From positions 62,001 to 126,000 of the forward strand of contig NZ_MJAK01000006.1 in the NCBI RefSeq assembly GCF_001742745.1: a stretch of DNA of 64,000 nt. Direction: 5' to 3'. Source of the DNA: Curtobacterium sp. ER1/6 (GTDB taxonomy: Bacteria > Actinomycetota > Actinomycetes > Actinomycetales > Microbacteriaceae). Both the position numbers and the translations under genes were made by a program. The notes beneath the pieces were generated by a model. It made no database searches. It was not told the origin of the DNA and was given only the letters and a program-made list of their open reading frames with translations. This document shows, one piece after another, positions 23,407 through 54,874 of the stretch (its first letter is position 1; every line of letters begins with the position of its first letter).

Positions 23407-23589
23407 ATGTACAGCACCTACTCCGGGATGCCGAGGACCGCACGACCCACCGCGACCTCCACGCGGGTGGGCCTGACCGACCCGGCCGTCATCGACGCCT
23501 ACGTGTCCCGCCGCATCCACGACCCGGCGCTCCTGTCCGTGCGGACCGAACCGTCGTACGCTGACTTCTTCACGGCGCCCACCGCGTAG
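23407..23589 (+). CDS. 60-aa small protein with EPSYADFFTA tail
   Basis: ATG at 23407 follows GGAAGG (23391-23396) at normal distance. Residues ~20-36 (RVGLTDPAVIDAYVSRR) and the C-terminal EPSYADFFTA align with the 59-aa protein at 54028-54207 (RRGMTAPAELDRMISER ... EPSYADFFTA). Both sit just upstream of transcription-regulator genes. There is no signal peptide and no membrane segment. The function is unknown. Conservation between two loci in one genome argues that it is real. Confidence 0.75.
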   Translation: MYSTYSGMPRTARPTATSTRVGLTDPAVIDAYVSRRIHDPALLSVRTEPSYADFFTAPTA

Positions 23590-23636: not shown

Positions 23637-24194
23637 ATGCCACTGACCGTCGTCCGCCGTGAGCACGTGCACCTCTACGCCCGGGAGCCGCGGTCGCGCG
23701 CGGCCAAGGTCGCCGTGGACGCCCTGCTCCGGCTGCAGCACGCCGAGGAGCAGCAACTCGAGCAGGCCCGGACCGAGAGCGGTCTGACGAAGAACGAGTT
23801 CCTGACGGTCCGGTACATGCTGCAGGCCCACCGCGACGGGCGCGCGATGGGCCCGAAGGACCTCGCGGTGATGCTCAACGTGTCGAACGCCTCGGTCACG
23901 AAGATCGTCGACGGCCTGGTGGCGAAGGGCGACATCGTCCGCGTGCCGCACCCGACCGACCGCCGCGCACAGGTGCTCGAGCCGACGGTGCAGGCCGCCG
24001 AGAAGATCGACTCGTCCTACGCCCGGTTCCACGAGGCGGTCGTGGGCGTGATGGACCACCTGTCGAGCGAGGACAACGAGGTGCTCGCACGGTGCCTCAC
24101 GCAGATCACCGACGCGCTCGCCGGCGGTGCCCCGACCCCGGTCGACGAGTACACGGTCGACCCCGACGGCGCCGCGGAGCCGATCGACTCGTAG
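23637..24194 (+). CDS. MarR-family transcriptional regulator
   Basis: A 185-aa winged-helix protein: LTKNEFLTVRYMLQAHRDGRAMGPKDLAVMLNVSNASVTKIVDGLVAKGDIVRVPHPTDRRAQVLEPT. It begins 47 bp after the 60-aa small-protein gene and is probably co-transcribed with it. An N-terminal extension of ~40 residues precedes the MarR core. The ligand is unknown. Confidence 0.88.
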   Translation: MPLTVVRREHVHLYAREPRSRAAKVAVDALLRLQHAEEQQLEQARTESGLTKNEFLTVRYMLQAHRDGRAMGPKDLAVMLNVSNASVTKIVDGLVAKGDIVRVPHPTDRRAQVLEPTVQAAEKIDSSYARFHEAVVGVMDHLSSEDNEVLARCLTQITDALAGGAPTPVDEYTVDPDGAAEPIDS

Positions 24195-24269: not shown

Positions 24270-24884
24270 ATGACGCACGAGGTCGACGACGACGCGACCC
24301 CGCCCCGGCGCGGCGGGTACCGCAAGGGCACCGAGCGTCGCGCCCAGATCCTCGACGAGATGATCCGGATGGTCGCCGCGCAGGGCGTGGACGCCTCGTC
24401 CCTCCGATCGGTGGCCGACGCGCTCGGCATCACCCACGCCGCGCTCCGGCACTACTTCCCGAGCCGCGACGAACTCCTGCTCGCGGTCTACCGCGAACAC
24501 GAGGTGCGCGAGCAGGACGCCCCCGACCGGATGCGGTCGGCGATCGGCGACATGCGGGAGAGCGCCTCGCGGAACCGCGAGGTGCCCGGGCTCGTGCAGC
24601 TGTACACGACCCTCGCCGCCGACGCGGTGCAGGAGGGGCACCCCGCGACACGTGAGTTCATGCGGGAGCGCTTCACCCGGCTCCGCGCGGACCTGGCGGA
24701 GCTCATCGCAGCCGACCAGGCAGCCGGACGCATCCGGGCCGACCTCGACCCGGTCGACCTGGCGAGCCTCGGCATCGCCGCGTCCGACGGTCTGCAGGTC
24801 CAGTGGCTGCTCGACCCGGAGGCCGTCGACGGGGAGCGCGTGCTCCGGCTGCTCGAGACGATCATCCCGCCCGCGGACGGCTGA
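24270..24884 (+). CDS. TetR/AcrR-family transcriptional regulator
   Basis: A 204-aa protein. The N-terminal helix-turn-helix (RRAQILDEMIRMVAAQGVDASSLRSVADALGITHAALRHYFPSRDELLLAVY) is classic TetR. The C-terminal ligand domain (VQLYTTLAADAVQEGHPATREFMRERF) resembles the TetR group whose members often control sugar or beta-glucoside genes. The hexosaminidase gene is convergent and just downstream, but regulation of it is only a possibility. Confidence 0.9.
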   Translation: MTHEVDDDATPPRRGGYRKGTERRAQILDEMIRMVAAQGVDASSLRSVADALGITHAALRHYFPSRDELLLAVYREHEVREQDAPDRMRSAIGDMRESASRNREVPGLVQLYTTLAADAVQEGHPATREFMRERFTRLRADLAELIAADQAAGRIRADLDPVDLASLGIAASDGLQVQWLLDPEAVDGERVLRLLETIIPPADG

Positions 24885-51554: not shown

Positions 51555-52526
51555 TCAGGCGTGCCGCTCCCGGGCCGCCCGGAGCGTCTCACCCGGGAGC
51601 TCGCCGAACTCCTCGCGGTACGCACCCGAGAACCGGCCGAGGTGCGTGATCCCGACGGCCCGCGCGACGTCCGCGACCGCGGCGTGCTGTCCGGTCTCGA
51701 GCTGCTGCCGCGCCATCAGGAGCCGGACGCTCCGCAGGTAGCTCATCGGCGTGGTGCCGTGGATGCGCTGGAACGCGCTCTGCAGGCCGCGGACGCTCAT
51801 GCCGGCGGCCGCGGCGACGTCGTCGACGGTGATGCGCTCGGCGACGTGGTCGAGGAGGAACGTCTCGGCGTCGGCGAGGCCGGCGTGGGCGGTCCGCGGT
51901 GTGTCGACCTGCGCGGGCCAGTGCGGGATCGCGGTGAGCAGGCCCGCGGCGGCCATCGCGGCGAGCTCGTGCTCGCGGGCCAGGGAGACCTCGCCCGTGG
52001 TGCCGAGGATCTCCGCGGCGACGGTGCGGACCATCAGCCACCACGCGGCGAGCGGTGCCCCGTCCGGGATGTGGTTCGGCTCGAACTCGAGCGGCCCCGG
52101 CTCCCACCCGCCGCGCTCGGCGGCGACGCGCTCGACGACCTCGCGGTCGATGCGCAGGACGTCCTTCTGGAACCGGTCCCACTGCACCTGCTGGCGACCG
52201 GGCGAGTACAGGACCGGACGACCGATCGGCAGCTGCTGGCCACCCACCACGGCGTGGCCGGCCTTCAACCAGACCAGGACGATCGCAGCGGTCGCGTCGA
52301 CCTCGCCGCGTACCGTGCCGGTGCAGCTGGTCGACTCGAGGGTCAGCAGCGGCGTGCCGGTCAGGGTCTCCTCGAACGTGAAGTCGCTGCTGCCGGTCAC
52401 GTCGAGGCCGCGCACCAGGAAGGTGTGCAGGATCGCGTTCCGGGCGGTCGCGGTGTCGCGGGTCCGCGTCACGAGGCGCGTCCGCGTGATGGTCGCGGCG
52501 ACCGGGTCGTCGTCGTGGTCGTGCAT
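51555..52526 (-). CDS. AraC-family regulator 1
   Basis: A 323-aa protein. The N-terminal cupin-like sensing domain (AraC_binding_2 style: HAVVGGQQLPIGRPVLYSPGRQQVQWDRFQKDVLRIDREVVERVA) is followed by two C-terminal helix-turn-helix units (~235-320: ITVDDVAAAAGMSVRGLQSAFQRIHGTTPMSYLRSVRLLMARQQL and VADVARAVGITHLGRFSGAYREEFGELP). It lies 11 bp downstream of regulator 2 on the same strand, so both come from one transcript. Confidence 0.9.
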   Translation of the reverse strand: MHDHDDDPVAATITRTRLVTRTRDTATARNAILHTFLVRGLDVTGSSDFTFEETLTGTPLLTLESTSCTGTVRGEVDATAAIVLVWLKAGHAVVGGQQLPIGRPVLYSPGRQQVQWDRFQKDVLRIDREVVERVAAERGGWEPGPLEFEPNHIPDGAPLAAWWLMVRTVAAEILGTTGEVSLAREHELAAMAAAGLLTAIPHWPAQVDTPRTAHAGLADAETFLLDHVAERITVDDVAAAAGMSVRGLQSAFQRIHGTTPMSYLRSVRLLMARQQLETGQHAAVADVARAVGITHLGRFSGAYREEFGELPGETLRAARERHA

Positions 52527-52537
52527 GCGTCCGTTCC

Positions 52538-53491
52538 TCAGCTGCGGCGGAGGGTGTCGCGGGGGTACTCCCCGTGCTGTTCAGCGTAGGAGGCGGAGAA
52601 CCGACCGGCGTGCGCGAAGCCCCAGTGCCGTGCGACGTCGGCGATGTTCGTCGTCGCCGGGTCGCCGGCGAGCAGCGCGTCCCGCACCCGGTCGAGCCGG
52701 ACGTGCCGGATGTAGCCGTTCGGGCTCATCGCGACGGTTCGCTGGAAGGCGTGCTGCAGGGCACGGAGGCTGAGGTTCGCGACCGAGGCCAGGTCCGCCG
52801 TGGTGATCGGCAGGTGGGCGTGCTCGTGCACGTACTCCACGGCGGTCCGGACGTGGCTGTTCTTCGGCAGCAGCAGGTCGGCCGGCAGCGACGCGGAGAC
52901 GACCGGGTACAGCTCGAGCAGGGCGAGCGCCCCCAGTCGGCCCATCTCGGCCTGCAGGAGCGGTGACGCCTGACGGTCCATCACGGTGTGGGAGATGAGC
53001 TGCACGCTGCTGCGCCACACCTGCAGGGCCCGGTCGTCCGGGCGGACCGTGTGGTCGAGTCGCAGGTCACCGGGTGCCGTGCCGCGCTCGCCCGCCACGG
53101 TCTCGAGCGCCGCACGGTTCACCTGGACGATGCGCTGGTCGTAGTCGTCGTACGAGAACGCCGCACCCTGCTGCGGCCAGAGCTGCGGCCGACCGGGCTC
53201 CATCCGGACCTGGTCGTCACCGGTGCCGATCGTCGCGGTGCCCTTCGTCGTCCACTGCACGACGAAGTCCTCGGACGGGGTCATCACGCCGTCGAGGTGT
53301 CCGTCGAACCGGATCGTCCTGAGCGTCATGGACCGGTCACCGACGGCGGTGTACCGGAACGAGAACGGCTGCCGGGTCTGGTCGGCACTCCACTGCTGGC
53401 CCGCGTACGCCTCGGAGAGGAAGTCGCGAGCGACATCGAGGTCGGTGCTCTGCGTCGCTTCCTGGACACGGGTCGGGTTCGGGTCATCCAT
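52538..53491 (-). CDS. AraC-family regulator 2
   Basis: A 317-aa protein (ATG at 53491) with the same domain layout as regulator 1: sensing domain FVVQWTTKGTATIGTGDDQVRMEPGRPQLWPQQGAAFSYDDYDQRIVQVNRAALETVAGE and HTH units ITTADLASVANLSLRALQHAFQRTVAMSPNGYIRHVRLDRV and IADVARHWGFAHAGRFSASYAEQHGEYP. It is divergent from the small-ORF operon, with 22-bp-spaced direct repeats between them, so it is the likely regulator of that operon. Confidence 0.9.
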   Translation of the reverse strand: MDDPNPTRVQEATQSTDLDVARDFLSEAYAGQQWSADQTRQPFSFRYTAVGDRSMTLRTIRFDGHLDGVMTPSEDFVVQWTTKGTATIGTGDDQVRMEPGRPQLWPQQGAAFSYDDYDQRIVQVNRAALETVAGERGTAPGDLRLDHTVRPDDRALQVWRSSVQLISHTVMDRQASPLLQAEMGRLGALALLELYPVVSASLPADLLLPKNSHVRTAVEYVHEHAHLPITTADLASVANLSLRALQHAFQRTVAMSPNGYIRHVRLDRVRDALLAGDPATTNIADVARHWGFAHAGRFSASYAEQHGEYPRDTLRRS

Positions 53492-53626: not shown

Positions 53627-53730
53627 AGCTCGTCGCCGGTGGTCGCGGGCGTCGCCACCCGCGCCGTACGGTCGGACCACCGCCCGACGCCACTCCCGAT
53701 CCGGCGCCGAGCAGAACGAGGGACACCCCC

Positions 53731-53949
53731 ATGACCACCATCACCGCCACCGACCTCCAGGTCGCGCCGACGACCGCGCACGACGCCGTGTCGCTCCGTC
53801 GCCGTCGCCGTCCGGCACAGCGCAGCCCCTTCACCGAGGTCCTCGAGGCGCGTCGGCAGCACACCCTGCAGGTGGCAGCCGTGAGCTCCGGCATCCTGTC
53901 CGTCACCGTCGCGGCCTCCGCGGCGATCATCCTCACCCTCTCCGCATGA
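53731..53949 (+). CDS. 72-aa small membrane protein of the small-ORF operon
   Basis: MTTITATDLQVAPTTAHD leads to a basic middle (SLRRRRRPAQRS) and a C-terminal transmembrane helix (LQVAAVSSGILSVTVAASAAIILTLSA). It is tail-anchored in appearance. The stop overlaps the next start (ATGA). The family is unknown. ACGAGGGACACC upstream gives a weak ribosome-binding site (GAGGG). Confidence 0.65.
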   Translation: MTTITATDLQVAPTTAHDAVSLRRRRRPAQRSPFTEVLEARRQHTLQVAAVSSGILSVTVAASAAIILTLSA

Positions 53950-54035
53950 GCGCCCTGCTCGCGCACGACGATCTGGCCACCCAGGCCATCGACATGACCG
54001 CCCTCCTCGCAGAACAGGACCGCACCGATGCGTGA
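53946..54035 (+). CDS. 29-aa peptide ORF
   Basis: ATG at 53946 overlaps the previous stop by 4 bp and its own stop overlaps the next ORF by 8 bp. The sequence MSALLAHDDLATQAIDMTALLAEQDRTDA is acidic and amphipathic with no signal. Translational coupling on both sides is the main support; alone it would not be credible. Confidence 0.5.
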   Translation: MSALLAHDDLATQAIDMTALLAEQDRTDA

Positions 54036-54207
54036 CCGCCACGACCTCGCCGCCCTCCGCCAGGACCCGACCGAGTGGCACCGCCGCGGCATGACCGCTC
54101 CGGCGGAGCTCGACCGGATGATCTCCGAACGCCTCGGGGCGCAGTTCTCCAGCACCGCCCGCTCCGCCTTCGAACCGTCCTACGCGGACTTCTTCACCGC
54201 GGCCTGA
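54028..54207 (+). CDS. 59-aa small protein with EPSYADFFTA tail
   Basis: MRDRHDLAALRQDPTEWHRRG leads to MTAPAELDRMISERLGAQFSS and the C-terminal FEPSYADFFTAA. It is a paralog of the 60-aa protein at 23407-23589: RxGhTxPAxhDxhhSxRh (h = hydrophobic) and the exact EPSYADFFTA are shared. It is soluble, helical and of unknown function. It overlaps the 29-aa ORF and is followed 70 bp later by a TetR gene. A regulator also follows the paralog at 23.4 kb. Confidence 0.78.
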   Translation: MRDRHDLAALRQDPTEWHRRGMTAPAELDRMISERLGAQFSSTARSAFEPSYADFFTAA

Positions 54208-54277: not shown

Positions 54278-54874
54278 ATGACCCTCCTCACCCTCACGCC
54301 CTCCCGCCGCGAGACCGACGTGCAGCGCGCCGCCTCCGGTGCCGCCGACGCCCTCTTCACCGAGCGCGGTGTCATCCCGGTCACGCTCGAGGACGTCGCG
54401 GACCGCGCGGGGCTGACCCTCGCCGAGCTCACCGCCGCCTACCCGACCAAGCGTGACCTGGTCGTCGCCGTGCTCCAGCGGTGGCACGGGGCCTGGCGCC
54501 GGGCGCTGGACCGGATCGCGTCGTCCGAGAGCGATCCGCGGGACGAGGTCCTCGCGATCTTCGGGTACCTCGAGGAGTGCTTCGAGGACGAGGGGTGGCG
54601 CGGCTGCGCCTTCATCAACGGCCACGCGGAGCTCGGTCGGCAGGACCCGGGCGTCGCCGAGCTCGCGCGCGAGCACTTCCTCGACGTCCAGCGGCACCTC
54701 ACGCTCGTCTGCGAGCGGGGCGCGATGCCGGCGCACATCGCGCAGGGCCTGTCGCTCCTGATCGAGGGCGCGCGGGTCGAGTCCGCCGTCCAACGGTCGG
54801 CTCAGCCGGCGCGCTCCGCTCGGCTGGCCGCGGCCGTGCTCATGTCGGTCTACGAGTCGCGTCCGACCTTCTGA
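54278..54874 (+). CDS. TetR-family transcriptional regulator
   Basis: A 198-aa protein. The N-terminal HTH (AASGAADALFTERGVIPVTLEDVADRAGLTLAELTAAYPTKRDLVVAVLQRWHGAWRRAL) and the C-terminal domain with GWRGCAFINGHAELG (a pattern common in the TetR_C group around AcuR-like regulators) are clear. It is probably the last gene of the small-ORF operon. Confidence 0.88.
   Translation: MTLLTLTPSRRETDVQRAASGAADALFTERGVIPVTLEDVADRAGLTLAELTAAYPTKRDLVVAVLQRWHGAWRRALDRIASSESDPRDEVLAIFGYLEECFEDEGWRGCAFINGHAELGRQDPGVAELAREHFLDVQRHLTLVCERGAMPAHIAQGLSLLIEGARVESAVQRSAQPARSARLAAAVLMSVYESRPTF

Follow-up and report, generated by a model that had tools for sequence, protein, structure and literature searches.

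Several kinds of small bacterial proteins can be compared with those described here. Small tail-anchored membrane proteins of bacteria include Prli42 and the SpoVM-type anchors, and the WXG100/ESX substrates are proteins of about 100 residues with a WXG turn and a C-terminal YxxxD/E signal. The Asp23/Gls24 (PF03780) and Transgly_assoc GlsB/YeaQ (PF04226) families are also small proteins with a membrane link. A survey of Enterobacteriaceae describes lineage-restricted microproteins encoded by short, taxon-restricted open reading frames (ORFs) that are often unannotated (PMC11188072). The locus studied here lies in a stretch of 64,000 nucleotides (nt) from Curtobacterium sp. ER1/6 (hereafter the window, to which coordinates refer unless another locus is named) and encodes a protein of 59 amino acids (aa), which we call C (54028..54207, + strand). 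This seemingly isolated orphan gene turned out to be part of a system comprising several undescribed microprotein families, coupled frames, a common linear motif, module fusion and defined regulators. C follows two other small genes, A and B, in what appears to be a modular microprotein operon with translational coupling, seen so far in Microbacteriaceae alone.

Like Prli42 or the SpoVM-type anchors, A would serve as a miniature membrane anchor for soluble partners; this likeness is one without shown homology, and the described anchors come without several coupled microproteins or a common linear motif. C, a small helical protein of an actinobacterium, shares a W..G element and an aromatic-acidic tail with the WXG100/ESX substrates, but it has about 57 residues instead of about 100, and its tail reads YADFF instead of YxxxD/E. 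A type VII (WXG100/ESX) substrate was rejected since the alignments of C are without W-x-G and the tyrosine is followed by ADFF. Members of the Asp23/Gls24 and Transgly_assoc families are encoded next to some of the C, B and E genes (D, E and F being further families presented below), whereas A, B, C, D, E and F have no sequence match to them; the Asp23 domain (PF03780), searched for in A, C, D, E and F, matched the neighbours alone. Like the Enterobacteriaceae microproteins (PMC11188072), the A-B-C ORFs are short, taxon-restricted and partly unannotated; they differ in that several families occur together in operons, exchange modules, undergo fusion and have one linear motif next to regulators.

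A preliminary description of the window had reported C (EWHRRGMTAPAEL..MI..RL followed by EPSYADFFTAA) and overlooked the two micro-ORFs coupled to it at 53731-53949 and 53946-54035. The first gene, A (53731..53949, + strand), encodes a 72-aa microprotein with a conserved SPF[ST]EV..ARR and a C-terminal hydrophobic stretch, a putative tail anchor. The second, B (53946..54035, + strand), is a 29-aa micro-ORF (MSALLAHDDLATQAIDMTALLAEQDRTDA, containing IDMTALLAEQ) whose start overlaps the stop of A (ATGA), and the start of C overlaps the end of B by 8 nt. C is the third cistron of this overlapping operon, which is followed by a TetR-family regulator as the last gene of the cassette (54278..54874, + strand; TetR_N, E-value 8.8e-7), a position repeated in many cassettes. 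Two AraC-type regulators complete the arrangement on the - strand, one divergent from A (52538..53491; its start is taken from a codon-usage call, and a longer frame opens at 53680) and a second in tandem with it (51555..52526), assigned to the same neighbourhood cluster c0. A scan of the window cassette for sigma-70 promoters and terminators found none.

The gene order A-B-C, extended at some loci by D, E or F and held together by overlaps of 4-8 nt, is not particular to the window. Neighbourhood clustering of 86 loci (an uneven sample, in which gene calls outside annotated records come from a simple codon-usage script) showed divergent AraC, a hydrophobic A of about 70 aa, C and TetR repeated at unrelated sites, the window arrangement being found for example in L062, L065, L066, L070, L077 and L123. 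The public annotation of plasmid pCspYC1 gives the same order as the window (two AraC-type regulators, hypothetical, hypothetical, TetR), and this plasmid also carries the B ORF (L248 3916-4008, 29-30 aa), a member of the system that is missing from its gene table. Between A and C, B (28-38 aa) overlaps the stop of A with its start and the start of C with its stop, and the motif T[QE].IDMTALLAEQ is kept in 14 of the 22 cassettes read, that of the window included. B and C are fused as a 92-aa ORF, followed by E and F, in one Curtobacterium genome (L208) and on plasmid P20 (L249). As side observations, L135 (3909-4289) contains a second, degenerate B-C pair (PPTQPIDITHLL; PPSAWQRAGLTPPHE), tail-less and upstream of an intact A-B-C operon, which is perhaps a decaying duplicate. 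Also, a TA[CT]NGT element (e.g., CGTACGGTC), which could be a -10 promoter element, was seen by eye on the 5' side of A, at a distance of about 55-60 nt, in L014, L062, L065, L066, L070, L083, L133 and others; word counts did not exceed shuffles, and no shared DNA words 5' of A clearly exceeded the shuffled controls.

The preliminary description had paired the 59-aa protein with a 60-aa protein of the window (23407..23589, + strand; C-terminus ..EPSYADFFTAPTA; orthologues in L137-L141). Both ORFs are present and read as described, and EPSYADFFTA is exactly common to the two proteins. The DNA coding for the two tails differs at wobble positions (TCC/TCG, GCG/GCT), so that the tail is conserved as protein. 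A tblastn search of the 3.37-Mb genome of the strain with the 59-aa protein retrieved the 23407 copy at an E-value of 6.7e-4 and five further copies below 1e-3. Both copies match the C-family profile with the tail PxYxDFF, at E-values of 3.5e-26 for 54028 and 2.7e-18 for 23407, the latter being scored by a profile that includes it. On these alignments, the homology of the two proteins is far beyond chance. A degenerate DNA pattern for P-x-Y-x-D-F gave 8 matches in the same genome, 7 of them within the C family, and 0 matches when reversed as a control; the sole match outside the family (C1:503632) is internal to a 234-aa membrane protein and was discarded as unrelated. The coupled A and B genes are present upstream of the 54028 copy and absent from the window for the 23407 copy.

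The two copies first recognized are part of a larger set. A profile search (21 rows) identified eight C copies in the genome of the strain (weakest E-value 4.8e-10), and 3-9 copies per genome, with tail and reading frame preserved, in all 60 Curtobacterium genomes searched, where a single-query search likewise finds the family. Among 150 genomes of the bacterial family, 3 matched the profile, as did 1 among 248 of the order; every match is a Curtobacterium, and the about 390 other genomes of family and order gave none. A pattern scan for the tail in 84,980 species genomes had its best 80 loci all in Curtobacterium or in two unclassified Microbacteriaceae isolates; because the scan picks loci by their tail, it is no measure of how well the tail is conserved, and these loci were not used for that purpose, A-based searches being used instead. 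C copies occur on three Curtobacterium plasmids, and none was found in the viral contigs searched. The statement that no described family has this tail agrees with our searches, as C had no significant match in Pfam, NCBIfam, PHROGs or PADLOC and none in a profile search of PDB sequences. Also, the literature on small proteins, microproteins, MarR or GlsB in Curtobacterium and Microbacteriaceae yielded no paper on these proteins. Judged from its sequences, C is an undescribed multi-copy family of Curtobacterium.

One copy, C15:33832, is near-universal and keeps its place between the gene of a 1209-aa protein and purA; it often adjoins a MT0933_antitox gene. The ratio of nonsynonymous to synonymous substitution rates (dN/dS) of this core copy is 0.205 (703 pairs, 38 loci). 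The core copy is under purifying selection, and the gene is therefore real. For accessory copies, the values are higher and scattered (0.23-1.15 for the window type). Residues R19, G21, P25, P50, Y52, D54, F55 and F56 are invariant across 43 aligned C rows, many of which derive from the tail-selected scan. An AlphaFold2 model of C predicts three helices and a short tail helix with modest confidence (predicted local distance difference test, pLDDT, 78.5; predicted template modelling score, pTM, 0.44), and Foldseek comparison of this modest model with the PDB gave no match.

Evidence on the tail that is free of this selection comes from A, which as a query carries no tail information. A-only searches found relatives in six further Microbacteriaceae genera, followed by coupled strings of genes mostly overlapping by 4 nt. 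The order is A-B-C-D in the g35 loci L166 and L187-L189, A-C in the g5 loci L161 and L202, A-B-C-D-x-E in L162, A-B-E in L169, and A-E then MarR in L157, L185 and L209. In eight non-Curtobacterium operons, the C position is occupied by a protein of 66-106 aa whose N-terminal half differs (V...RI..YPKR) and whose tail is of the same kind. This tail reads EPSYADFF in L202, DPCYADFF in L162, VCYADFF in L161, LCYADFF in L200, and V[ST]Y[AG]SFF in L166 and L187-L189. C is absent from other A operons (g2, g3), and the protein at the C position is tail-less in L164. The strongest argument that the tail is a modular, functional linear motif is its presence on C proteins of different build. Among the functions first suggested, a docking tag is the one that gains from this result, the tail behaving like a docking motif that recurs in other genera on differently built proteins of equivalent operons. 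The idea of a conserved free C-terminus had to be abandoned: 1 to about 20 residues follow the motif (..FFIDPTARLPGE; ..SFFVDPEAVSARDDREMAVAS), so that a free end is not required.

Among the families that lengthen these operons, E (73-109 aa) is present in 68 of 150 genomes and in 45 of 85 genera of the Microbacteriaceae; in a class-wide sample it was found in 7 of 297 genomes, all Microbacteriaceae. It frequently adjoins MarR genes. Its structure model has five strands and one helix (core pLDDT >90), for which Foldseek returned nothing below an E-value of 0.2, and a PDB sequence search with E gave no match. D (29 aa, YFDT.IDDDDLD) and F (DAHR..W.RL.RLHTA) lengthen some operons, and D, E and F are all without a match in Pfam and NCBIfam. 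In the genome of the strain, two E genes in tandem (C15:63663-64294, L217) are separated from the core C copy by about 30 kb; several other Curtobacterium genomes have their E genes no more than about 3 kb from this copy, on the far side of purA.

A circumstantial hint of envelope or desiccation stress comes from Asp23, Transgly_assoc and sigma-factor neighbours. The C1:626751 copy adjoins a sigma-70 region 2 frame and an Asp23-family gene (PF03780, 28.7 bits for a cut-off of 28), and in L218 and L232, from two genera other than Curtobacterium, E adjoins sigma-factor genes of the extracytoplasmic function (ECF) type and then Asp23-like genes below the cut-off. In C1-type Curtobacterium loci, the gene of a small membrane protein of the Transgly_assoc family (GlsB/YeaQ type) is found 3' of B (L076 3005-3274; L080, L107). 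In Curtobacterium aetherium, drying induces genes for Asp23/Gls24, GlsB/YeaQ/YmgE, CsbD, sigma factors, MarR regulators and one TetR regulator (PMC12029717). The pairs of sigma-factor and Asp23-like genes are located at L011 5296-6199 (own genome, beside C), L218 1924-3140 and L232 1802-3188 (both beside E). The last ORF of L162, whose start looks GlsB-like by eye, has no Pfam match and was not used.

We infer the biochemical function of the A-B-C system from these comparisons. Our preferred, still tentative explanation is a regulated, membrane-tethered microprotein assembly with a role in envelope or desiccation stress, whose PxYxDFF tail docks a common partner. Coupled translation would deliver A, B and C jointly; A would be a tail-anchored membrane protein, with which B and C may assemble through their short linear motifs (TQP[IL]D[ML]..L and [DE]P[ST]YADFF, respectively). 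The YADFF tail would then dock a partner common to all paralogues and encoded elsewhere, and the linked regulators would set expression, probably by autoregulation. The linked Asp23, Transgly_assoc and ECF-sigma genes suggest that such an assembly may act in envelope or desiccation stress. A wider version, which we regard as conceivable and rather doubtful, is a combinatorial scaffolding or signalling system private to Microbacteriaceae, in which modules A-F, each bearing a short linear motif of its own, are swapped and fused between coupled operons under the control of regulators, and PxYxDFF docks the C-types to one membrane hub in envelope or drying stress. Several observations weigh against the membrane-tethered assembly. 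The membrane anchoring of A was judged from hydrophobicity by eye, accessory C copies evolve rapidly (dN/dS up to 1.15), and the stress linkage concerns few loci, some with Asp23 matches below the Pfam cut-off. The drying study names none of the A-F genes (PMC12029717). Also, C can work outside the coupled operon, as neither A nor B accompanies the core copy and several others.

The preliminary description had also proposed a regulator ligand. The C tail would then bind the adjacent TetR, MarR or AraC protein and release or activate it, forming a small feedback switch, which we consider unlikely. The flanking regulators are as first described, TetR behind the 54028 copy and, behind the 23407 copy, MarR directly (23637..24194, + strand) and then TetR (24270..24884, + strand; TetR_C_6, TetR_N), to which the two divergent AraC-type genes at 51555-53491 must be added. 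C directly precedes TetR or MarR at many loci with short gaps, and the cassettes consist of regulators and microproteins, with no enzyme or transporter. In other genera, too, related operons are accompanied by similar MarR genes: over 150 aa, the MarR that follows the 23407 copy shares 53% of its residues with the one that follows an A-E operon of a different genus, and the MarR preceding the C1:636674 copy shares 46% with the one of L161, a g5 A-C operon. These identities tie both window loci into the same regulator-linked system. Several subfamilies are indeed associated with regulators (AraC/TetR cassettes at many sites, MarR and TetR for the 23407 type, MarR for C1:636674), but the association is not universal. 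As a general function the ligand is not supported, since about half of the copies of the strain, among them C15 (purA-side), C17 and C3, are not directly adjacent to a MarR, TetR or AraC gene; the C12 copy is separated by one ORF from the LacI gene that it follows. Moreover, regulator genes and microproteins recombine independently, and one tail would have to serve regulators of three fold classes. A common partner is a better fit than a ligand of the regulators, because the tail stays constant where the adjacent regulator belongs to another fold class or is missing.

A single common partner would also explain the constant tail if the latter were an adaptor or degradation tag, bringing C, together with anything held by B and A, to a protease or chaperone. 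A terminal AA behind the motif, present in several members, is reminiscent of C-terminal degrons, but core copies end in RG or RS and others extend up to about 20 residues behind the motif; a terminal degron is therefore not conserved, and we judge this explanation improbable. A toxin-antitoxin or defence cassette, in which a small membrane toxin, A, would be neutralized by C or B and the pair controlled by the regulators, seems very improbable: a small hydrophobic protein accompanied by small soluble proteins and a regulator, at variable genomic sites and on plasmids, would suit it, but PADLOC and Pfam gave no match, a link to defence genes was not seen, and the core C copies are fixed in the genus without A. 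Finally, small size, a conserved tail and adjacent regulators might recall an exported peptide signal, as first suggested, or the precursor of a modified peptide, but this is hardly credible, as no signal peptide was recognized by eye, the cassettes are without transporter, peptidase or maturation enzyme, and the motif also occurs inside longer proteins. We also rejected a precursor of a ribosomally synthesized and post-translationally modified peptide (neighbours being regulators and microproteins, and the conserved part being a C-terminal motif) and a signalling peptide of PapR, Phr or RRNPP type (the adjacent regulators being TetR, MarR and AraC).

Three further neighbourhoods deserve mention. 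Genes of BLUF type (blue-light sensor) lie near three A/B/C operons (L164 1947-2375, L174 2-349 and L249 428-1492), one of them about 310 nt upstream of A; from these three loci, a link of the operons to light is possible. The C17-type copy (L010 4737-4895; L132) is located, in two genomes, on the opposite strand inside a conserved housekeeping-like gene cluster. A very conserved 107-aa protein (MGRRRENRWQPPEHPEVERPRAYSLSEDARG) precedes the C12-type copy in 3 of 3 genomes (L142 5676-5999, L143 5900-6223, L144 4934-5257).
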